A program made the translations under genes and the position numbers. The notes under the pieces are model-generated. The model had not been told where the DNA came from. It ran no database searches and saw only the letters and a program-made list of their open reading frames with translations. This document shows, in pieces, positions 18,382 through 30,554 of a DNA stretch of 64,000 bases. This stretch comes from Kushneria aurantia DSM 21353. Lineage in GTDB: Bacteria; Pseudomonadota; Gammaproteobacteria; Pseudomonadales; Halomonadaceae. Numbering within the stretch: position 1 is the first letter of the stretch; the number at the start of each line of letters is the position of its first letter. Location: positions 1 to 64,000 of the forward strand of contig NZ_KB907870.1 of NCBI RefSeq assembly GCF_000382245.1, written 5' to 3'.

Positions 18382-19683
18382 TCACAGCATCCAGGTCGCC
18401 AGCGGCGGCCAGAACAGCAGGGCGAACAACACCAGCAGCTGTAGTGCGATAAACGGCAGCAGCGAGACGAAAATATCCTTGAGGCTGACCTCCGGCGGCG
18501 CGACGCCCTTGAGATAGAAGGCGGCGGGGCCGAACGGGGGCGACAGGAAAGAGACCTGCATGTTGACCGCGAACAGAATGCCGAACCAGATGGGGCTATA
18601 GCCCAACTGGGTGACGATGGGCACGAAGATCGGCAGGGTCAGCATCGCCACACCGATCCAGTCGAGGAACATGCCCAGGATCAGCAGAATGCCCATCATC
18701 ACCAGAATGATCACGATAGGGGCGACATCCAGTCCCGTAATCATGCCCGAAATGAAGCGGTTACCGCCCATCAGGTTGTAGACACCGACCAGCGCGGCGG
18801 CGCCGATACCGATCCAGATGATCATGCCGCAGGTCATCAGCGTCTGGGCAAGGCTCTCATGCATCGTTTTGAACGAGAATTCGCCGCGCAGCACCACCGC
18901 CAGCAGTACGCCGAACACGCCCATTGCCGCCGCCTCGGTGACCGAGGCCACGCCGCCATAGATCGAGCCCAGAACCAGACCGGCGATCAGCGCCGGCACG
19001 ATAATGGCGCGCAGCGCCTGCCCTTTGGTGGCGAAGGTTTCGCGGCGGTTCTCTTCAGTCAGCGGCGGGCCCATGGCGGGATTTTTCAGACAGCGCACCA
19101 ACACATAGCCGATGTAGGAGAGCATCAGAATCACCGCCGGCGTAATAGCAGCGGTAAACAGGTCGGCGATCGACACACTGGCGATCAGGCCATAGATAAT
19201 CAATACGATTGAAGGCGGCATCATGGTACCCAGAGAACCGCCGGCACACACCACACCAATGGAGAGATGCTTGTCGTAACCCAGCCGCAGCATCTGCGGC
19301 AGGGCGAGAATACCCAGCAGCACGATTTCACCGCCGATGATGCCGGACAGCGCGGCGAGAAAGAACGCCACCACCACGGTCTGCACCGCTACGCCACCGG
19401 GAAGTCGCCCGGCAAACACCCGCATGGCGTTGAAAAGATCCCTGGCGATACCCGAGCGATCCAACAGCGACGCCATGAGTACAAACATTGGCACCGCCAC
19501 CAGCGAATACTCGGTGACAAAGCCATAGATACGGCTGGTAACCAATGGCATCGCCATCGGCCCGAACCAACCAAAGGTAAAGGCCAGCGCCACCAGACCG
19601 GTAATAAAGGCCAGCGGCAGTCCGGTTATCAGCAGGGCGAAGATCGCCCCGACCATCAATAGCGTGCCATCGGCGATCGTCAT
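18382..19683 (-). CDS. dctM: TRAP transporter large permease (DctM)
   Basis: A 433-residue integral membrane protein with about 12 hydrophobic segments, the Na+-coupled transport subunit of a tripartite TRAP carrier. Family motifs include GLPLAFITGLVAL at the N-terminus, GSLGTMMPPSIVLIIYG (about 160-176) and FLSPPFGPAAFYLKG near the C-terminus. The start at 19683 overlaps the dctQ stop codon (ATGA), typical of QM pairs; the frame extends upstream into dctQ but without conserved sequence. The product should import D-galactonate or a related sugar acid, as inferred from the dgo genes downstream. Confidence 0.94.
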   Translation of the reverse strand: MTIADGTLLMVGAIFALLITGLPLAFITGLVALAFTFGWFGPMAMPLVTSRIYGFVTEYSLVAVPMFVLMASLLDRSGIARDLFNAMRVFAGRLPGGVAVQTVVVAFFLAALSGIIGGEIVLLGILALPQMLRLGYDKHLSIGVVCAGGSLGTMMPPSIVLIIYGLIASVSIADLFTAAITPAVILMLSYIGYVLVRCLKNPAMGPPLTEENRRETFATKGQALRAIIVPALIAGLVLGSIYGGVASVTEAAAMGVFGVLLAVVLRGEFSFKTMHESLAQTLMTCGMIIWIGIGAAALVGVYNLMGGNRFISGMITGLDVAPIVIILVMMGILLILGMFLDWIGVAMLTLPIFVPIVTQLGYSPIWFGILFAVNMQVSFLSPPFGPAAFYLKGVAPPEVSLKDIFVSLLPFIALQLLVLFALLFWPPLATWML

Positions 19684-20309
19684 GATGTCGCCTCCTCGTC
19701 CACCTGCTCGGCTACTGCCGGCCGGCCGCGCAGCGACTGAACCAGGTGGATGAAGGACTGCACGCACATGACAACCAGTGCCACCATGATCACGCCCTTG
19801 ATCAGCGCCGGAAATGGCGGATTCCAGGAGGTGCCGGAACGCTCCAGTTGCCACTCGCCAAACGGATTGTGAGAGGCGCTCCAGAACATCACAAAAGCGG
19901 CATAACTCATCGCCAGACAGAAGCCGAAGGTCACCAGATCATTGAAACGGTCCAGCCACAGGCGCAGCTTCGGACCGGCAGTGTCGTAGAGCACCCTGAC
20001 ACGGATATGTCGATTGCTGGCCAGCGCTGCGGGGCCACCGAGCGAAAAGCTGACCGCTACCAGCATTACCACGCTCTCGTGCACCCAGGAGGTGGGTGAG
20101 TTGAAGCCGTAGCGCATGATGACCTCGTAGACGCTGATCGCCATGGCGATAAAAATCAGCCAGGCGGCACCGCGCGCGCACCACACCACGCCACGGTCGA
20201 AGGTGCTGCGTACCGGATCGGGGGCGCGATCGGTATGCTCCTGGCTCGATCGTGCCAGCTCCTCTTCATGCGCCTCGATGGCATCGCGGCGATGGGAATC
20301 CTGTGACAT
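19680..20309 (-). CDS. dctQ: TRAP transporter small permease (DctQ)
   Basis: A 209-residue membrane protein with four predicted membrane segments (starting near residues 48, 82, 128 and 165), the DctQ subunit. The first 45 residues are charged (Glu/Arg-rich, cytoplasmic). The family pattern is seen in EVIMRYGFNSPTSWVHE and FSLGGPAALASNRHIRV. It overlaps dctM by 4 bp and follows the dctP gene by 78 bp. Confidence 0.92.
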   Translation of the reverse strand: MSQDSHRRDAIEAHEEELARSSQEHTDRAPDPVRSTFDRGVVWCARGAAWLIFIAMAISVYEVIMRYGFNSPTSWVHESVVMLVAVSFSLGGPAALASNRHIRVRVLYDTAGPKLRLWLDRFNDLVTFGFCLAMSYAAFVMFWSASHNPFGEWQLERSGTSWNPPFPALIKGVIMVALVVMCVQSFIHLVQSLRGRPAVAEQVDEEATS

Positions 20310-20387
20310 GACGTCTTCTCCGCGTCAGGGTCTGATCGTTAAAGCCGGCGCGCGAGCATCACATCGCGCGCCGATTGACGGCAGGGC

Positions 20388-21455
20388 TCAGGAGGCATTA
20401 CTGCTGTCGCCGCTTTCAGTCTCATCGGTGAGCAGGTTATGAGCGCGCAGATAGGCCACCACCGAGTCGTAGAACTCACGTGTAATGTCGTTGCGCTCGG
20501 CCCATTCAGCCCACTCCTGACGAGCGATGGCGCGGAACCGGGCGCGCTCCTCGGCGGGCAGGTCGATGATCTCGATATCAGGATTCTGGCGCGCCTCGCT
20601 CACCGCCTGCAGGTCACGGGTTTTCAGTTCGGCGACCATTTCATAGGCCAGCGCATCGACCGAGGTAGTGAGAATCGCCCTGAGGTCCGCCGGCAGTTCG
20701 TCCCATATCTGCTTGTTGAGAGAGACCGCTACCATCGGCAGCGAGTGGAACCCCGGATAGAGTGGATAAGACGCGAACTCGTGAAGCCCCTGAGCCTGAT
20801 TGGTGGCAAACACGGTATAGTCAGCGGCGTCAATCACTCCCTTTTCGAGGCCGGTATAGACCTCCGACCCGGGCAGGTTGACCGGTGTGGCGCCGGCCTT
20901 TTCGAAGATGTTGTAGACCATACCCTCCGGCGCGCGCAGCTTGAGCCCCTGCATATCCTCGATCGAATGTACCGGCTTGCTCGACGGCAGCGACTCCAGG
21001 CCGGTGGCGGCAGCGCCGATAAGATGCACACCATAGGGCTCGACCAGCCGGTTATAGAGCGCTTCGCCGCCGGCGTTGTTCATGTAATCGAGAAAATCGT
21101 AAGGATCGCTCCAGGCGCCCACCAGATTGCCGATCATGCCGAAAGCCGGATTCTGACCGGTAAAATAGCTGGGGTCGGTCAGGTGCCCCTGCAGAATGCC
21201 GGAGCGCACCGCCTGCAGAGTCTGATTGGCCTGCACCACCGCGCCAACCGGTAGAATCTCGATGGCGATACGGCCATCCGACATCTGCTCGACGTTATCG
21301 GCCCAGGCCCTTTTCATCTCGAACTGAGGTTCACCCGATGTCTCCGAGGTCTGGAAGGTCCACTCGTACTCGGCGGCCTTTGCTGCCTGTAGATTGAAGG
21401 CCAGCGCGCCCAGCATGGCGGTCACACAGACTTTTTTGACAGTCATTGCAGTCAT
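20388..21455 (-). CDS. TRAP solute-binding protein DctP, copy 1
   Basis: A 355-residue periplasmic binding protein of the DctP family with an N-terminal signal peptide (cleavage probably after AAKAAEY region, about residue 27). The TRAP arginine that holds the substrate carboxylate is expected in KLRAPEGMVYN (about residues 157-168). The body matches the neighbouring second DctP at roughly two of three residues. A Ser/Asp/Glu tail (DETESGDSSNAS) is not found in the paralogue. RBS AGAGG precedes the ATG. Its 96-bp distance to the upstream copy leaves room for an internal regulatory signal. Likely ligand: D-galactonate or another hexonate. Confidence 0.93.
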   Translation of the reverse strand: MTAMTVKKVCVTAMLGALAFNLQAAKAAEYEWTFQTSETSGEPQFEMKRAWADNVEQMSDGRIAIEILPVGAVVQANQTLQAVRSGILQGHLTDPSYFTGQNPAFGMIGNLVGAWSDPYDFLDYMNNAGGEALYNRLVEPYGVHLIGAAATGLESLPSSKPVHSIEDMQGLKLRAPEGMVYNIFEKAGATPVNLPGSEVYTGLEKGVIDAADYTVFATNQAQGLHEFASYPLYPGFHSLPMVAVSLNKQIWDELPADLRAILTTSVDALAYEMVAELKTRDLQAVSEARQNPDIEIIDLPAEERARFRAIARQEWAEWAERNDITREFYDSVVAYLRAHNLLTDETESGDSSNAS

Positions 21456-21551
21456 GATGCGTTACCTCTGTTCCCTTGCAATGGAAATCACGACGCTTGT
21501 CGAGACGCGGCAGCCGACCGATCGCTACCGGCCGGCATGCCGAAAGATGAC

Positions 21552-22571
21552 TTAAAGCAGACCGCGGGAGCGCAGAAAGCCGGTGGCCGAGTCATAGATT
21601 TTCTGTGTCATGTCATTGCGACCGGCCCACGCTTTCCACTCCTGCTCGGCGGCCTGGCGGAATTTCCTGCGCTCCTCCGGCGGCAGATCGAAGGGGTGCA
21701 CGTTGGGGTCCTGCTCGAGTTTCGCCAGCGTCTCCAGATCCTGCTCCTTGAGACGCGCAATCAGGTCATAGGCCATGCGATCGAAGGCCGTCTTGAGCGT
21801 GACCTGCAGATCTTCCGGCAGACCGTCCCAGATCTGCTTGTTGATCGACACCGCGATCATCGGCATCGAGTGGAAGCCGGGGTAGAGCGGATAGGGCGCG
21901 AACTGATGCAGCCCCTGAGCATCGTTATTGGAGAGCACAGTGGAGTCAGCGGCATCGATCACCCCTTTTTCGAGGCCGGTGTAAACTTCCGAACCGGGCA
22001 GGTTGACCGGCGTCGCGCCAATGCGCTCGAAGATGTTGTAGACCATCCCCTGGGGCGCACGAATCTTGAGCCCCTTGAAGTCCTCGATGGTTTTGATCTC
22101 CACCTTCGAGGGCACCGACTCCAGCGGGAAAGTGGCCGCTGCAATCAGATGCACGCCATAGGGCTCGACCAGCTCGTTGTAGAGCGGCTCACCACCGGCA
22201 TATTTCATGTACTCGAGAAAGTCGTAGGGGTTCTGCCAGGCGCCGACCAGATTACCCAGCATGCCAAAGGCCGGGTTTTGACCGGAGAAGTAGCTGGGGT
22301 CGGTCATGTGACCCTGCAGGATGCCCGAGCTGACCGCCTGCAGGGTTTCGGTCGGCCCCACCACGGCGTTGATCGGCATCACTTCGATCGCAACACGCCC
22401 ATCGGTCATGGTCTCGATGCGGTCTGCCCACTCCTGCTTGATCCTGAAACTGGGCTCGCCGGAAGTTTCGGACGCCTGGAATGTCCACTCGTACTCGGCG
22501 GCCTGAGCGTTGAGGGCGAGCGCGCCAAGCACGGCGATCACACCCGCTTTCAGCGGCAATGCAGTCTTCAT
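21552..22571 (-). CDS. TRAP solute-binding protein DctP, copy 2 (tandem paralogue)
   Basis: A 339-residue DctP family periplasmic protein with a signal peptide ending near AAQAAEYEW-type sequence (about residue 24). Long blocks are shared with copy 1, for instance VNLPGSEVYTGLEKGVIDAAD and PYPLYPGFHS, while the ligand-proximal region after DCP-type strand differs (ATFPLESVPSK versus ATGLESLPSSK). The start codon overlaps the stop codon of the upstream gntR gene by 4 bp (ATGA). One QM pair serving two binding proteins suggests either a wider substrate range or dosage. Confidence 0.93.
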   Translation of the reverse strand: MKTALPLKAGVIAVLGALALNAQAAEYEWTFQASETSGEPSFRIKQEWADRIETMTDGRVAIEVMPINAVVGPTETLQAVSSGILQGHMTDPSYFSGQNPAFGMLGNLVGAWQNPYDFLEYMKYAGGEPLYNELVEPYGVHLIAAATFPLESVPSKVEIKTIEDFKGLKIRAPQGMVYNIFERIGATPVNLPGSEVYTGLEKGVIDAADSTVLSNNDAQGLHQFAPYPLYPGFHSMPMIAVSINKQIWDGLPEDLQVTLKTAFDRMAYDLIARLKEQDLETLAKLEQDPNVHPFDLPPEERRKFRQAAEQEWKAWAGRNDMTQKIYDSATGFLRSRGLL

Positions 22572-23347
22572 GGTTGTTCTCCAGTGGCTTCGGTGACAAG
22601 GGTTGTGGGCCGGAGCATCTCCTCCTCGATGCCCAGGTCGATGGCGGTGCGCTCGAGCACCCTGACAGCCGCGCGAGTGGCGGCTTCCGGCTGGCGCAGA
22701 CGAATCGCTTCCATGACGCAGTAGTGGCGCGCCATGCTGTCGTCGAGCGCCGCTACGTTGTGGCTGGACTGCTCGACGCTCAGCGCTATGGCGGACTTGA
22801 GCACATGACTGATCTGCGTCCAGATGAGGTTGTGTGAAGCGGCAAATATGGCTTCATGGAAATCAACGTCGTAATCGGTATAGCTGCGCCCCTGATAGTG
22901 ACGGTCCGGGGCTTCCATGGCGCTTTTCATACCCAGCCAGGCGGATTCGAGAGCGAGTAGATCAAAAGCGTTGGCGTGCTGTGCGGCCAGCCCGGTCACA
23001 AAGGGCTCAACCGCCATACGAAAAGAGACCACTTCACGCTGAATACGCAGATTGGAGCGGGCATAGCGTGCCACCCAGGCACTTAAACGAGGATCAAGCA
23101 GATGCCAGCTGGTCAACTCACGAACCCTTGTTCCCTGCCCGGCAATACGGGTCAGCAAACCGACATCGACCAGCATCTGTAGCGCACTGCGTACCGTACC
23201 CCGGCTGACCCGGAGGGATTGGCTGAACTCGCGTTCGCCGGGAAGAGCATCATCAGGTTGGTAGCGCCCACTCAGGATCGACTTCGCCAGCTGTTCGGCG
23301 ATATCGAAACGAGCGCTTTGTCCTGAAAAGCAAGAAACCTGATTCAT
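22568..23347 (-). CDS. GntR/FadR-family regulator of the galactonate operon (DgoR-like)
   Basis: A 259-residue regulator with an N-terminal winged helix (about 15-80; LPGEREFSQSLRVSRGTVRSAL) and a C-terminal FCD effector domain, the layout of FadR-subfamily repressors such as E. coli DgoR. It is the first gene of the operon and overlaps the first dctP gene by 4 bp, so it is co-transcribed with its targets. The likely ligand is galactonate. The perfect palindrome at 23377-23393, 30 bp upstream, has the GT-N3-AC core of this subfamily and is the expected binding site, giving autoregulation. Confidence 0.9.
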   Translation of the reverse strand: MNQVSCFSGQSARFDIAEQLAKSILSGRYQPDDALPGEREFSQSLRVSRGTVRSALQMLVDVGLLTRIAGQGTRVRELTSWHLLDPRLSAWVARYARSNLRIQREVVSFRMAVEPFVTGLAAQHANAFDLLALESAWLGMKSAMEAPDRHYQGRSYTDYDVDFHEAIFAASHNLIWTQISHVLKSAIALSVEQSSHNVAALDDSMARHYCVMEAIRLRQPEAATRAAVRVLERTAIDLGIEEEMLRPTTLVTEATGEQP

Positions 23348-23652
23348 GTCATCCTACCCGGTAAGACCTGACATCCTTTATGTCGGACATAAAACCAGAC
23401 CGGCGTAGTGACTTCCTTTAGACATTGGTGCAAACGGGGTCAGCGGTAGCGTTTCGCGTCGCTCCAGGACGCCTCGCCCCCGACCATTCGACGACAGGAC
23501 AACCATCGCCAGCCGCTATAACATGATGGCGTTGTTTTAAATCACGTCTTTGGGGGCGCCATGTTGTCGTTGTTTGCCGCGCCGGATTGCCATACGCCCG
23601 GTTCTCCATGCCGCCGGGAAATCTCCTTCACGATCACCACCCTGTCGCAGCG
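23348..23652. other. Divergent control region between gntR and dctB
   Basis: About 305 bp. It contains the perfect palindrome at 23377-23393 and a direct repeat TGACWTCCTTTA at 23369-23380 and 23409-23420 (40 bp apart, 11 of 12 identical). A TATAAC hexamer at 23517-23522 may be the -10 of dctBD, without a good -35. A minus-strand open frame at 23418-23609 has no recognisable protein features and is not called. Confidence 0.5.
23369..23420 (-). promoter_or_regulatory. Candidate GntR operator and direct repeats
   Basis: A perfect palindrome of 17 bp, TTTATGTC-G-GACATAAA, at 23377-23393, contains the GT-N3-AC core known for FadR-subfamily GntR operators. It lies about 30-46 bp upstream of the gntR ATG, suitable to block a promoter. 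It overlaps the first of two direct repeats TGAC(A/T)TCCTTTA (23369-23380, 23409-23420). Confidence 0.75.
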
Positions 23653-25525
23653 ATGAACATCACAAGACGCCGCACCCGCCGTGTACTGATCGCACTCGTG
23701 ATTGTGGCGGGGCTACTGCTGATGATGTGGCAGGGCGCACAGCTGGCCCGCGAACGGGCGCTGACCGATCTTCACCATACGGCCGGCAACGCGCTCGAGC
23801 TCTCCCGTGCCAACCTCACCGGCTACCTCACCCGACATGATTACCTGCCCCACCTGCTCGCCACCCGCGAGAGCGTGCGGCGCTTTCTCGCTCGCCCCGA
23901 GGCGCGGCGCGACGGCCCGGCGCTCAACCGGCTGCTGGATAGCGCCCGCGCCTACGCCGATGTGTCGGACGTCTATCTGCTCGACCGCAGCGGCACCACC
24001 ATCGCCGCCAGTAACTGGCAGCGCGATGACACTTTCATGGGTCAGAACTACGCCTTTCGCGGCTACTATCGCCAGGCGATCAGCGGCCGCAGCGGACGCT
24101 TTCATGCCCTCGGCACGCAGTCGGGGGCGCGCGGCTACTATTTTTCGGCGCCGGTGTGGGCGACCGGCCAGGCACCGGATACCCCGCCCGACGGCGTGAT
24201 GGTGGTCAAGGTGGGGCTCGACGAGATCGAGCGCGAGTGGCGCAACCTCGACGCCACCCTGCTGGTCAGCGATATCAACGGCATCGTCTTCATGGCCAGT
24301 GACCCGGCGCTGCGCCTGAGCGCGCTGCAGCCGCTCTCCGAAAGCGCCCGCCGCGGCCTGCTGGCGACCCGCCGCTACACCGACGAACCGCTGCCGGCGT
24401 CGGGGCTCGAAATACTCCAATCCCTGCCCGGCGGCGCCCGACTGGTCCGCCTTGGCGGCCGCGACTACCTGAATCTGTCGCGGCCGCTGGCGCGCTTCAA
24501 CTGGAGTCTGCATATCCTCGAACCGCTGACGCCGGTGGTGCAGGCGCAGTGGCTGGGGGCGCTGGGAGCCGGCGGCGGCTGGATGCTGATCGCGCTGGGT
24601 GGCGCCATCGGCTGGCAGCGCCGTCGGCTGCGTCGCGAGCGCGAGCGCTTCGCCGAACGTGAGCGTCACACCCTGGCGCACGCCCGCGACGAGCTGGAGC
24701 GCCACGTGACCGAGCGTACCGCGGAGCTGGTCGACTCCAATCGGCAGCTGTCCCAGGAGATCGATGAACGCCGGCGCGCCGAGGAGAGTCTGCGCCAGAC
24801 CCGCGATGAACTGGTGCAGGCGGCGCGGCTGGCAGTGCTGGGGCAACTGGCAGCGAGCATCAACCACGAACTCAACCAGCCGCTCGGCGCCATTCGCGCC
24901 TACGCCGACAACGCCCGCGTGCTGCTGCAACGTGACCGCCGCGACGACGCCGCTGCCAACCTGGCGCAGATTGCCGAGCTGGTCGAGCGCATGGCCGCCA
25001 TCAGCGCTCAGTTGCGCCAGTTCTCGCGCAAGGGCGGTGAAACGCTGAGCGATGTGTCGGTACAGGCCTGCTTCGACTACGCCCTGCGCCTGTTTCGCGC
25101 TCGTCTCGAGCAGGCTGATATAACCGTCGTCTCACACATGGATGAGTCAACCTGCTGGGTGCGTGCTGATTCGGTACGCCTGGAACAGGTGCTGGTCAAT
25201 CTGATTGGTAACGCCCTGCAGGCGATGAATGACAGCGCTGAGCGGCAACTGATGGTCGCCGCCGAGCAGGGCGACGAATGGGTTATCCTGAGCGTGGCCG
25301 ACAGCGGCCCGGGGCTCAGCGAGGAAGCACTGGAACACCTCTTCGAACCCTTCTATACCACCCGTGCCGCCGGCAAGGGGCTGGGACTGGGGCTGTCGAT
25401 CTCACAGCGCATCGTCAGCGATCTCGGCGGCCGCCTCGAAGCTCGCAACCGAGCGCAGGGCGGCGCGCTGTTTGTCATCCACCTGCCCGCTGCCGCCTGC
25501 TCGCAACCACCGGAGACCCCCGCTG

Positions 25526-25533
<8 letters not shown>
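23653..25533 (+). CDS. dctB: C4-dicarboxylate-type sensor histidine kinase DctB
   Basis: A 626-residue membrane sensor kinase of the DctB/NtrB type. It has TM1 at about 10-28, a periplasmic double-Cache sensor region (about 35-300, including GTTIAASNWQRDDTFMGQNY and the RGYYRQAISGR core), TM2 at about 302-322, a coiled-coil, then HisKA with phosphoacceptor His404 in SINHELNQPLGAI, N-box NLIGNALQAM (about 515) and G-boxes DSGPGLS and GKGLGLGLSIS. The start at 23653 places the basic MNITRRRTRR directly before TM1; an upstream ATG (23587) is possible. Neither has a strong ribosome site. It overlaps dctD by 8 bp. The sensor resembles DctB, but the neighbouring transporter is TAXI-type, so the signal could be a different organic acid. 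Confidence 0.9.
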
Positions 25534-26914
<1,381 letters not shown>

Positions 26915-27083
26915 ACATCAAGATGGCTACCGCCATACAGCGCCGCGCTGTCTCTCCCACCGCCCGGCGCCCCGGCATGCAGCCCTTCCCGGCTTCGCCG
27001 GCATCCGCCAGCCTTATACTTTCGCCCTGGCCCGCGCCCATTCGGCGGCGTTGGCAGCGGTTTTTGCCTTCCGGCATCACCGC

Positions 27084-27132
27084 TGTGCGGATTTCCGCAC
27101 ACCCCTATCGCTCCAGAATGCGGGAATCCGCC
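27084..27132 (+). promoter_or_regulatory. Tandem upstream activating sequences, probably for DctD
   Basis: Site 1 (27084-27101) is a perfect inverted repeat with arms TGTGCGGA and TCCGCACA around TT. Site 2 (27119-27132) is a related weaker dyad, TGCGGGAATCCGCC. Their centres are 33 bp apart, about three helical turns. They share TGCGG-N4-CCGC, resembling the dyads described for rhizobial DctD. They lie about 110-150 bp before the predicted transcription start. Confidence 0.7.
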
Positions 27133-27153
27133 CGCTGATTTGACTATAGTCTC

Positions 27154-27167
27154 GCGACCAAGGTCGC
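27154..27167. promoter_or_regulatory. Perfect palindrome GCGACC-AA-GGTCGC
   Basis: A perfect 6-bp-arm dyad between the two upstream sites and the IHF site. Its sequence differs from the DctD-like dyads, so a second regulator could bind here. No further evidence. Confidence 0.4.
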
Positions 27168-27179
27168 ATTAAAAAATTA

Positions 27180-27192
27180 CAAGATATTGATT
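27180..27192 (-). promoter_or_regulatory. IHF binding site consensus
   Basis: On the minus strand AATCAATATCTTG matches WATCAANNNNTTR at every defined position. It lies in an AT-rich block between the upstream dyads and the -24/-12 element, where IHF bends DNA at sigma-54 promoters. Confidence 0.7.
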
Positions 27193-27212
27193 TTAAATAA
27201 AAATAATCGCCA

Positions 27213-27228
27213 TGGCGCAAAGCTTGCC
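27213..27228 (+). promoter_or_regulatory. Sigma-54 (-24/-12) promoter of the TAXI operon
   Basis: TGGCGCAAAGCTTGCC contains the invariant GG (27214-27215) and GC (27226-27227) with exactly 10 bp between, as TGGC-N7-TTGC. Predicted transcription start is about 27238-27240, 65 bp upstream of the ATG. Confidence 0.75.
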
Positions 27229-27304
27229 ACTACAGGGGTGTCAGGCGCACCAATGTCACCGACCGGTGCCGCTACCAGAGACACACCACAACGGAGCACC
27301 CGCC

Positions 27305-28318
27305 ATGCCCCTTCTTTCGCGCAACACCCTTGCTCTCGCCGTCGCCGCGTCCATGACCACCACTGCCGGTCTGGCCACCATCGGCGCCGCTCAGGCCGGC
27401 GACAGCGTGGATCGCAGCGACTGGCCGAGCAGTATCACCGTCGCCACCGCCAGCCAGGGCGGCACCTATTATGTCTATGGTTCCGGCTGGGCCAACCTGA
27501 TTGCCGAAGAGCTGGGCATTTCCGGCGGTGGCGAGATCACCGGCGGCCCGACCCAGAACATGGCGCTGGTACACAGCGGTGACGTGGCGCTGGGGCTGAC
27601 CACCATGGGCCCCGCCGCCCAGGCGCTCAACGGCGAGAGCCCGCTGGCGCCGGGCATGGCGATGGATAACGCCTGTGCGCTGTTCCCCATGTATGAAACC
27701 CCCTTCTCGATCGCCACACTCTCCAGCAGCGGCATCAGCAGCATCGACGAAATTCCCGACGGCGCGCGCATCGGCTTCGGTCCGGCCGCTTCCACCTCCG
27801 ACACCTACTTCCCGGAGATCCTCTCCGAACTGAATGTCGACTACGAGCGTCGCAACGGCGGCTGGTCGGATCTCGGCAGCCAGCTGCAGGACGGCCTGAT
27901 CGATGTGGTCGCCTTTGCTGCCGGCATCCCCATTCCGGCGGTCAGTCAGCTGGAGGTACAGACCGGGGTCAACTTCATCGAGTTCACCGAGGATCAGCAG
28001 CGCCAGGTGGTCGAGTCCTTCCCGGTCGCGCCGTTCGAGATTCCGGCCAGCACCTACAGCACGCTCGATCACGACCTGCGGGCGGTGTCGATGTGGAACT
28101 TCACCATCGCCAACTGCGATCTGCCGGAAGAGTTCGTCTACCAGATCGTCAAGGTGAGCATGGAGAACAACGACCGCATGCGCGATATCCACCGCAGCGC
28201 CGCCAACAGCGTGCCGGAGAACCTTGAGTACAACACCGTGCTGCCCTATCACCCGGGTGCCGTGCGCTGGTATGAGGAGAACGGCTATGAGATCGATCCG
28301 TCGCTGATCCGTCAGTAA
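27305..28318 (+). CDS. TAXI-family TRAP solute-binding protein 1
   Basis: A 337-residue periplasmic binding protein of the TAXI family, with a signal peptide (about 1-30, ending near AAQAGD). The mature part begins ITVATASQGGTYYVYGSGWANLI, the diagnostic TAXI opening, and NMALVHSGDVALGLTTMGPA is the second family block. Known TAXI ligands include glutamate-like acids and 2-hydroxyglutarate in a few species; the ligand here is unknown. The start at 27305 follows GGAG. The gene is followed by a hairpin and the fused permease. Confidence 0.93.
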   Translation: MPLLSRNTLALAVAASMTTTAGLATIGAAQAGDSVDRSDWPSSITVATASQGGTYYVYGSGWANLIAEELGISGGGEITGGPTQNMALVHSGDVALGLTTMGPAAQALNGESPLAPGMAMDNACALFPMYETPFSIATLSSSGISSIDEIPDGARIGFGPAASTSDTYFPEILSELNVDYERRNGGWSDLGSQLQDGLIDVVAFAAGIPIPAVSQLEVQTGVNFIEFTEDQQRQVVESFPVAPFEIPASTYSTLDHDLRAVSMWNFTIANCDLPEEFVYQIVKVSMENNDRMRDIHRSAANSVPENLEYNTVLPYHPGAVRWYEENGYEIDPSLIRQ

Positions 28319-28379: not shown

Positions 28380-30554
28380 ATGTCCAACCCACATAAAGAT
28401 CAGAAGCCGGAAGATGACATGATCATCGCCGATGGGGTCGACAACGACGTCGTCGAGCCGGGTCGCCGTGTCTTCTCCGGCTGGCAGTGGTGGCTGTTCG
28501 CCGCCATGGCCGTGGCCTATACCAGCTTTCATCTGATCTCGCTCAACGTCTATCCGATCGAGACCTGGACGTTTCGTATCCTGCACGTCTGCGGCGCGCT
28601 GATTCTCGGCTTTGGCCTCTATACCGGGGCGCGCTTTGCCGATGACGGCGATAAAACCTCACCGCGCTGGCTCGATGGCCTCGCCGCCGTGCTGCTGCTG
28701 CCCGCTCTCTACGCACTGGTGCAGGTCGTGCTGATGCGCCAGAGCATGGCCGGCGGCGCCATGCGCATCGACCCGGCGGTCGAGACCTGGCACTTCGGTG
28801 CGCCGCTGATCGCCGCCACGGCGGGCGCTATCGTGCTCTCCTGGCTGATCCGTCGTCCGCGTGGCAGCCTGCCGATCACCGAACTGGTGCTGATGGTGTG
28901 CGCCGCCGCCGCCTCCAGCTATCTGCTGCTGATGTTCAACTCGCCGCTGCGCGCCTCGACCGGCACCGCCTTCGCCCCCATCGGCATCAGCTGGGCGGCG
29001 ATCGCCGGCTCACTGCTGATTCTGGAGCTGACCCGTCGCGTGGCCGGCATGGCGCTGGTGGCCATCGCCGCCATTTTTATCGCCTATGTGTTCGCCGGCC
29101 CTGCCCTGCCGGGCTTTCTGAGCTATCCGGGGCTGTCGCTCAACCGCTTCTTCAGCCAGGTCTACACCGACGCCGGCGTACTGGGGCCCACCACCGCGGT
29201 CTCCTCGACCTACATCATTTTGTTCATTATCTTCGCCGCCTTCCTGCAGGCCTCGAAGGTAGGCGACTACTTCGTCAATTTCGCCTTCGCTGCCGCCGGT
29301 CGCGCGCGTGGCGGCCCGGCCAAGGTATCGATCTTCGCCTCCGGCCTGATGGGCATGATCAACGGCACCAGCGCCGGTAACGTGGTCTCTACCGGTTCGC
29401 TGACCATTCCGCTGATGAAAAAGGTCGGCTATCCCGGCCGCAGCGCCGGCGCCATCGAGGCCGCCGCCTCCACCGGCGGGCAGATCATGCCGCCGATCAT
29501 GGGCGCGGGCGCCTTCATCATGGCCGAGATCACCGGTATCCCCTACACCGAAATCGCCATCGCGGCGGTGATTCCCGCCATTCTCTACTTCGCCTCGGTC
29601 TACTTCATGGTCGACTTCGAGGCCGCGCGCAAGGGCATGCGCGGCATGACCCGCGACGAGATCCCGAAGTTCTCCAAACTGGCACGCCACGCCTATCTGT
29701 TCGCGCCCATCATCATCCTGGTGGCAGCGCTGTTCATGGGCTATTCGGTGATCCGCGCCGGCACCCTGGCGACCGCTTCGGCGGCCATCGTCAGCTGGAT
29801 TTCGCCCAACAGGATGGGGCCGGCGGCGATCCTGCGCGCTCTGCAGCTGGGCGGTACGATGTCGATCCAGATCATCGCGGTGTGTGCCTGCGCCGGTCTG
29901 ATCGTCGGCGTGATCGGGCTCACCGGGGTGGGCGCGCGCTTCTCCTCACTGCTGCTGGGACTGGCCGGCGTCAGCCAGCTGCTGGCGCTGTTCTTCGCCA
30001 TGCTGATCAGCATTCTGCTGGGCATGGGCATGCCTACCACCGCCGCCTATGCGGTCGCCGCCTCGGTGGTGGCACCGGGTCTGATCGGTATCGGTATTCA
30101 GCCGCTGGTGGCCCACTTTTTCGTGTTCTACTTCGCGGTGGTCTCGGCGATCACGCCGCCGGTGGCGCTGGCCTCCTACGCCGCGGCGGGTATCTCGGGG
30201 GACAACGCCATGGGCACCTCGGTGGCCTCGTTCAAGATCGGCCTGGCAGCCTTCATCGTGCCTTTCATGTTCTTCTACAGCCCGGCGATGCTGATGGAGG
30301 GGAGTTGGCTGCAGATCGCTCGCGTCGGCGTCACCGCCACCATGGGCATCGTGCTGCTGTCGGCCACCGTGCAGGCGTGGTTCTTCGGCCCGGTAAAGGT
30401 GTGGCAGCGGGTGGCGATGTTCTTCGGTGCGCTGTGCATGATCTACGGCGGCATCTATACCGATCTGGCCGGCATCGCCATCGCCGCGGCACTGATCGTC
30501 ATGCAGCGGCGCGGGCAGAACAGCGACAATACGCCGACAATGGCAACAACCTGA
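28380..30554 (+). CDS. TRAP transporter fused 4TM/12TM permease (DctMQ), system 1
   Basis: A 724-residue integral membrane protein in which the small DctQ-like and large DctM-like permeases are fused, as is standard for TAXI-TRAP systems. It has a charged N-terminal tail (1-35), then many hydrophobic segments. GGPAKVSIFASGLMGMINGTSAGNVV (about 310-335) and GGQIMPPIMGAGAFIMAEITG (about 365-385) are the DctM signatures. It presumably forms one Na+-coupled importer with the binding protein upstream. No DUF1850 gene accompanies this copy, unlike system 2. Confidence 0.94.
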   Translation: MSNPHKDQKPEDDMIIADGVDNDVVEPGRRVFSGWQWWLFAAMAVAYTSFHLISLNVYPIETWTFRILHVCGALILGFGLYTGARFADDGDKTSPRWLDGLAAVLLLPALYALVQVVLMRQSMAGGAMRIDPAVETWHFGAPLIAATAGAIVLSWLIRRPRGSLPITELVLMVCAAAASSYLLLMFNSPLRASTGTAFAPIGISWAAIAGSLLILELTRRVAGMALVAIAAIFIAYVFAGPALPGFLSYPGLSLNRFFSQVYTDAGVLGPTTAVSSTYIILFIIFAAFLQASKVGDYFVNFAFAAAGRARGGPAKVSIFASGLMGMINGTSAGNVVSTGSLTIPLMKKVGYPGRSAGAIEAAASTGGQIMPPIMGAGAFIMAEITGIPYTEIAIAAVIPAILYFASVYFMVDFEAARKGMRGMTRDEIPKFSKLARHAYLFAPIIILVAALFMGYSVIRAGTLATASAAIVSWISPNRMGPAAILRALQLGGTMSIQIIAVCACAGLIVGVIGLTGVGARFSSLLLGLAGVSQLLALFFAMLISILLGMGMPTTAAYAVAASVVAPGLIGIGIQPLVAHFFVFYFAVVSAITPPVALASYAAAGISGDNAMGTSVASFKIGLAAFIVPFMFFYSPAMLMEGSWLQIARVGVTATMGIVLLSATVQAWFFGPVKVWQRVAMFFGALCMIYGGIYTDLAGIAIAAALIVMQRRGQNSDNTPTMATT

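Follow-up and report, generated by a model that had tools for sequence, protein, structure and literature searches.

The region considered here lies in a 64,000 nt stretch of the halophile Kushneria aurantia DSM 21353, of the family Halomonadaceae (contig NZ_KB907870.1, positions 1 to 64,000; hereafter the window), where dctB- and dctD-like genes are followed by genes for a TAXI-type TRAP transporter and a compact module of control elements sits between the two, upstream of the TAXI start codon at 27305 (Table 1). The sequence-only reading that preceded this work had described the module as lying next to a DctB/DctD pair, and the two genes directly upstream do encode the domains expected of one. 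The dctB-like open reading frame probably has its true start at a later ATG; the sensor region of its product is a dCache domain related to DctB, resembling the solved domains 3by9 (named 'Sensor protein', E 5e-35), 2zbb and 3e4o, of which the latter two carry the name dctB, and C4-dicarboxylates are its predicted ligand class. The dctD-like product, whose structural matches include 1qkk and 1l5y, both DctD receivers, joins a receiver to an AAA+ domain with GAFTGA and a Fis-type HTH; in alignment with Sinorhizobium meliloti DctD its recognition helix reads PRKTLYDKL against PRKTFYDKL, the pattern PRKTxYDKL being common to the two. One RpoN is encoded in the Kushneria genome, as are two further DctD matches at E <1e-20 (identity 43%). 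The TAXI and fused permease genes are separated by 61 bp and presumably form one operon, and the named TAXI loci nearest to that of K. aurantia are also from Kushneria, at 90-91% identity. A further, separate TRAP cluster, of DctP type and accompanied by a GntR/FCD regulator, is divergent from dctB and upstream of it (19680-23347).

Table 1. Genes and control elements between dctB and the TRAP permease gene, in window coordinates.
Feature	Position	Strand	Remarks
dctB-like sensor kinase	23587..25533	+	Pfam: dCache, HisKA, HATPase
dctD-like response regulator / sigma-54 activator	25526..26914	+	Pfam: receiver, AAA+, Fis-type HTH
UAS1 TGTGCGGATTTCCGCACA, predicted DctD site	27084..27101	none	perfect 18-bp dyad
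Site 2 AATGCGGGAATCCGCCCG, weaker DctD-like dyad	27117..27134	none	33 bp downstream of UAS1
Third dyad D3, GCGACC-AA-GGTCGC	27154..27167	none	perfect dyad; family consensus TTCGAC-YWWR-GTCGAA
IHF-consensus site	27180..27192	-	direct match, perfect
-24/-12 sigma-54 promoter, TGGCGC-AAAGC-TTGCC	27213..27228	+	TGGCGC-N5-TTGCC, GG-N10-GC
TAXI-family TRAP solute-binding protein	27305..28318	+	TIGR02122, 167 bits (cut-off 84)
Fused TRAP permease	28380..30554	+	TIGR02123, 615 bits (cut-off 321)

Each element previously reported from this interval is present, namely a perfect dyad, a related dyad 33 bp further on, which has 4 mismatches to the DctD consensus, an IHF site on the opposite strand, and a promoter box with the GG-N10-GC spacing. 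The earlier count of two dyads overlooked a third, D3, which is conserved. For IHF we take WATCAANNNNTTR to be the consensus, and sites of this kind between a UAS and the promoter are common in sigma-54 promoters; the -24/-12 box has 2 mismatches to TGGCACNNNNNTTGCW and lies 129 bp from UAS1. The 390-bp stretch was simulated 20,000 times with a first-order Markov model: 15 of the simulated stretches had a DctD-type dyad with no more than 2 mismatches, 144 had a perfect IHF site and 1024 a -24/-12 box as good as that of the window, and none had all three. By itself the box is weak evidence; its placement relative to the dyad in related genomes, described below, is strong evidence.

PMC11077940 quotes 5'-TGTGCGgaaatCCGCACA-3' as the Rhizobium meliloti DctD site, and the reverse complement of this S. 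meliloti sequence is exactly UAS1, which also matches the DctD-site pattern TGTGCGgnnntCCGCACA with 0 mismatches. In the 61 contigs of the Kushneria genome UAS1 is the only copy without mismatches, the next best having 2 mismatches at four places, and matches with up to 3 mismatches show no genome-wide excess: the forward and reverse counts are 46 and 36, and a reversed control gives 60 and 54. The same 18 bp occur at the S. meliloti dctA promoter on pSymB, at a distance of 92 bp upstream from TGGCACGCATGTTGCT; a second, weaker site (4 mismatches) precedes them by exactly 33 bp. The tandem spacing is thus shared and the order of the sites swapped, the weak site being upstream in S. meliloti and downstream, near the promoter, in Kushneria, where the promoter-near site is 96 bp rather than 92 bp from the -24 box. 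In both organisms DctBD is encoded beside the promoter, although in S. meliloti DctBD and RpoN drive a dicarboxylate symporter and there is no third dyad. In Pseudomonas aeruginosa DctBD and RpoN control DctA and DctPQM, where the TRAP system, as described in PMC7962211, is DctP-type and not TAXI. Promoters governed by DctD and sigma-54 are already known, and the present one is a variant by virtue of its TAXI target and third dyad; a whole-word search of open-access PMC papers returned none containing both DctD and TAXI, and we found no earlier report in that literature of a TAXI target of DctD.

The arrangement is conserved at most of the family loci compared. Among 30 whole-genome loci, the window included, UAS1 is found with 0-3 mismatches, and a -24/-12 box with no more than 3 mismatches lies 128 bp from it in 29, the window being the exception at 129 bp. 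The IHF site is less regular: the perfect consensus noted earlier stands in the window and is found in just 4 of the 30 loci, that of the window among them. A second set of 80 named loci, of which one was too short and 79 were tested, retains UAS1 with up to 4 mismatches in 75, it being absent at L057, L066, L069 and L075. When the -24/-12 box was searched for freely from +60 to +220, the best match fell 126-130 bp away in 72 of these 75; of the remainder, L095 and L098 hold an equally good box at 128 bp as well and L068 has a box with 4 mismatches at 129 bp. Where the spacing of UAS1 and promoter is conserved, the interval to the start of the gene differs from locus to locus.

The two sets share genomes, and their 109 entries include 75 distinct promoters of the 128-bp class. 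Information per column in these is 1.56 bits for UAS1, 1.13 for site 2 (+33 to +50), where the column pair 38/45 is G-C in 75/75, and 1.12 for the -24/-12 box, followed by 0.96 for the IHF-like block (a partial motif whose position is kept), 0.61 for +51 to +94, which holds D3, and 0.35 for +108 to +127. It falls to 0.08-0.16 upstream of UAS1, between UAS1 and site 2 and downstream of the promoter. The weaker second site at +33 is a conserved block. The position of the regulatory genes is more variable. DctBD is directly upstream of TAXI in 11 of the 80 named loci (Kushneria, Salinicola and Chromohalobacter), dctD is 3.5-4.7 kb upstream in 3, and in 66 it is not in the examined flank, some flanks being short. 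At most Halomonas-type loci DctBD does not adjoin TAXI, three other genes (identified by eye) intervene at L074, and in many further genomes, such as G196, DctD lies some kilobases upstream on the same contig.

Genomes that lack one of the partners provide natural tests of the association. With cut-offs of E up to 1e-40 for TAXI and 1e-150 for DctD, the 201 family genomes comprise 139 with both, 8 with TAXI only, 21 with DctD only and 33 with neither, a co-occurrence with a Fisher p of 2e-16 when kinship is ignored. The UAS is missing from all 8 TAXI-only genomes, their best UAS-like matches having 5-6 mismatches (in G117 over only ~420 bp of upstream sequence), and their best -24/-12 matches have 2-4 mismatches, the one with 2 being without the GG. 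Five of the eight, all from genus g19, apparently carry TAXI at another locus, as judged by eye, and are for that reason weaker natural knock-outs than the other three (G099, G180 and G190), in which TAXI is preceded by a perfect TTGATTCAAATCAA, a sequence that we take to resemble an FNR/Anr box. At the DctD-less loci L147, L148 and L149, which by length are on the same contigs as L075, L069 and L066, the region before TAXI has the perfect TTGATTCAAATCAA together with a long inverted repeat in place of the UAS. Four genomes of the window's own genus that are without TAXI have no DctD match and no UAS with 1 mismatch or fewer.

Of the DctD-only genomes 14 of the 21 were looked at. Two of them, G062 and G098, have a tandem UAS with the 33 bp spacing and a 1-mismatch -24/-12 box at +126 before a DctP-type gene, which in G062, where it is cut by the end of the stretch, scores above the TRAP_S1 cut-off and just under that for dctP. 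Four more, from genus g7, have tandem sites 34 bp apart, and the one gene checked there (L112) is DctP-type and above cut-off; the other eight have no UAS with 2 mismatches or fewer in the stretch examined. The earlier statement that DctD here serves a TAXI-type transporter and not the usual DctP or DctA has to be softened for the family, where two relatives have the same enhancer before a DctP-type gene and both targets therefore occur.

Most TAXI homologues examined outside the family have a different dyad. Among 390 genomes of the order 41 have a TAXI match at E up to 1e-85; the family accounts for all but 27 of these, and 26 of the 27 were examined (G560 being excluded). In 19 of the 26 a TGGGTGG-N4-CCACCCA dyad has a -24/-12 box 50-130 bp after it, with no more than 3 mismatches in each, as compared with 2 of 520 shuffled stretches; L226 and L248 are weak members of the 19 with 3 mismatches in both parts, and the other 7 homologues have no such pair. 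Loci L224-L242 and L247 belong to this comparison. In 8 of 8 non-family flanks examined, TAXI is followed by genes for a DctB- and DctD-like pair encoded on its own strand. The HTH of these DctD-like proteins reads ARKTLYDKM, as against the PRKTLYDKL found at 9 of 11 family DctD loci checked, the other 2 having no match to the search pattern. Enhancer site and DctD helix therefore differ together, TGTGCGG going with PRKT and TGGGTGG with ARKT, and the connection between the two differences may be causal.

It is thus very likely, as far as sequence can tell, that a sigma-54-dependent promoter controlled by DctB and DctD drives the TAXI-type TRAP operon. The proposal that DctD is the regulator draws support from the identity of UAS1 with the S. 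meliloti site, the adjoining dctBD genes, the conserved spacing and the loss of the UAS where DctD is missing. We would anticipate that the dCache domain of DctB senses a dicarboxylate or a close relative, that phosphorylated DctD binds strongly to UAS1 and weakly and cooperatively to the second dyad, and that IHF bends the DNA between the DctD sites and the promoter. Through a DNA loop DctD would then contact sigma-54 RNA polymerase at the -24/-12 box, with transcription of TAXI and permease from a predicted start near 27239 being dependent on rpoN and dctD.

That the dyads have arisen by chance, or are terminator hairpins of dctD, is scarcely credible: UAS1 does lie 170 bp past the dctD stop codon, but no T-run follows the dyads (by eye), the block is kept at L074 where the upstream gene is not dctD, and the simulations never combined dyad, IHF site and box. 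It is improbable, if somewhat less so, that TAXI is transcribed mainly from another promoter of sigma-70 type and that the sigma-54 site is auxiliary. Other promoters can serve, as TAXI is kept in three DctD-less relatives behind a different upstream region with the perfect TTGATTCAAATCAA; those loci, though, are ones that have lost the UAS, and UAS-bearing loci keep the -24/-12 box at a near-fixed distance.

A rather stronger case, though still a doubtful one, can be made that the sensor pair is in function a DctD-family paralogue, comparable to MifSR or AauSR, which responds to 2-oxoglutarate or another acid that TAXI then carries. The DctD-family paralogues MifR and AauR have other ligands, P. 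aeruginosa is described as having three DctBD-type systems with different ligands (PMC7962211, PMC4482717), and a Proteus TAXI protein is reported in PMC11574862 to be specific for alpha-ketoglutarate. Against this, UAS1 is identical to the site of the C4-dicarboxylate DctD, unlike the AauR site TTCGG-N4-CCGAA given for the Pseudomonas aatJ promoter (PMC7962211), and there are the two structures named dctB among the three matched by the sensor. Regulation by DctBD, with a dicarboxylate or a close relative as the probable ligand, is the preferred reading, and the pairing would point to C4-dicarboxylates or similar acids as the TAXI substrate.

Deletion of a Psychrobacter TAXI gene, according to a summary in the review PMC5812351, affected growth on acids including fumarate. 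VcGluP (VC0430) of Vibrio cholerae, a TAXI protein with an adjacent membrane component like that of Kushneria, is glutamate-specific in the account of PMC11574862, a paper in which a word search did not find DctB. Of its contacts with the ligand amino group, compared by way of an alignment with structure 8s4j, which from the matching residues appears to be VcGluP, Q93 and E125 are Thr and M201 is Ala in the Kushneria protein, Y45 being kept, in a reading made by hand; there is a Glu beside the position of E125. As most of these residues are not kept, glutamate is a less likely substrate. A copy of UAS, D3 and a -24/-12 box with 3 mismatches, after which come TAXI remnants, is found upstream of a malic enzyme gene in two genomes, at 325 and 633 bp; the best match of the G160 fragment is NADP-dependent malic enzyme, and the G174 gene was assigned by eye. 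These copies fit malate as a substrate, if anecdotally. The promoter-block copies before malic enzyme are at L133 (1959-2283) and, on the reverse strand, L134, where promoter capture is possible. An open reading frame at L120, considered as an NAD-glutamate dehydrogenase, had no NCBIfam match.

The substrate is known for few of the widespread TAXI transporters, a class that is poorly understood. With a whole clade tied to DctBD, both a substrate class (C4/C5 acids) and a regulator become testable, and one enhancer is seen before different transporter classes, TAXI, DctP-type and DctA. The paired difference in half-site and recognition helix furthermore provides a ready case for studies of DNA recognition by sigma-54 activators.

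Finally, the third dyad has features of its own. Its consensus occupies +68 to +83 of the 75 distinct promoters, with AC-N4-GT in all of them and AA or TT at the centre in 73; covariation between its halves is weak (ten pairs, of which two are invariant and two have shuffle p of 0.003 and 0.03). After the UAS of S. meliloti dctA, and likewise at six loci that are of DctP type or from g7, D3 is absent, any match having at least 5 mismatches. It differs from a DctD site in its half-site; a terminator was rejected by eye, with no T-run after the dyad, and a LysR-type box by reasoning, the symmetry being wrong. The AauR dyad at the sigma-54 promoter of aatJ (PMC7962211) is like D3 in style only, differing in half-site and length and serving an ABC transporter.

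Exact copies of the consensus number 29, in 25 of the 201 genomes, as against 2 for a reversed control; by position 14 are TAXI promoters, 2 the promoter copies before malic enzyme and 13 lie elsewhere, with no common theme seen among these. With up to 1 mismatch allowed, the window form is found at 14 places per strand of the window's genome versus 35 for the reversed control, and so there is no general excess of D3 there. D3-like palindromes do lie in that genome upstream of ppc (L136, 1997-2010) and between ppsA and a presumed regulator gene (L138, 1994-2007). When 30 loci each were scanned, from the 58 and 61 genomes with matches, a D3 profile score of at least 8 was reached upstream of ppsA in 11/30 (control stretch 0/30, shuffled 1/30) and upstream of ppc in 7/30 (0/30 and 0/30), the matches clustering in related genomes. 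Within Kushneria the ppc site is found in 4/4 and the ppsA site in 1/4, that one being the window's genome.

D3 is possibly the site of a second regulator, and as a regulon motif it would be a lead. We tentatively suggest, at longer odds than the DctD reading itself, that the TAXI promoter could be a two-input enhancer, in which DctD acts together with a D3 operator for a regulator that would also act on ppc and ppsA, at the phosphoenolpyruvate node, and so couple the uptake of dicarboxylates to the gluconeogenic state. The pairing of DctD and TAXI would also be old in the order, with enhancer and DctD helix having changed together. In two g19 genomes an exact D3 also lies near an amino-acid-type ABC permease cluster, identified by eye (L127, position 2001, and L128, position 1998).
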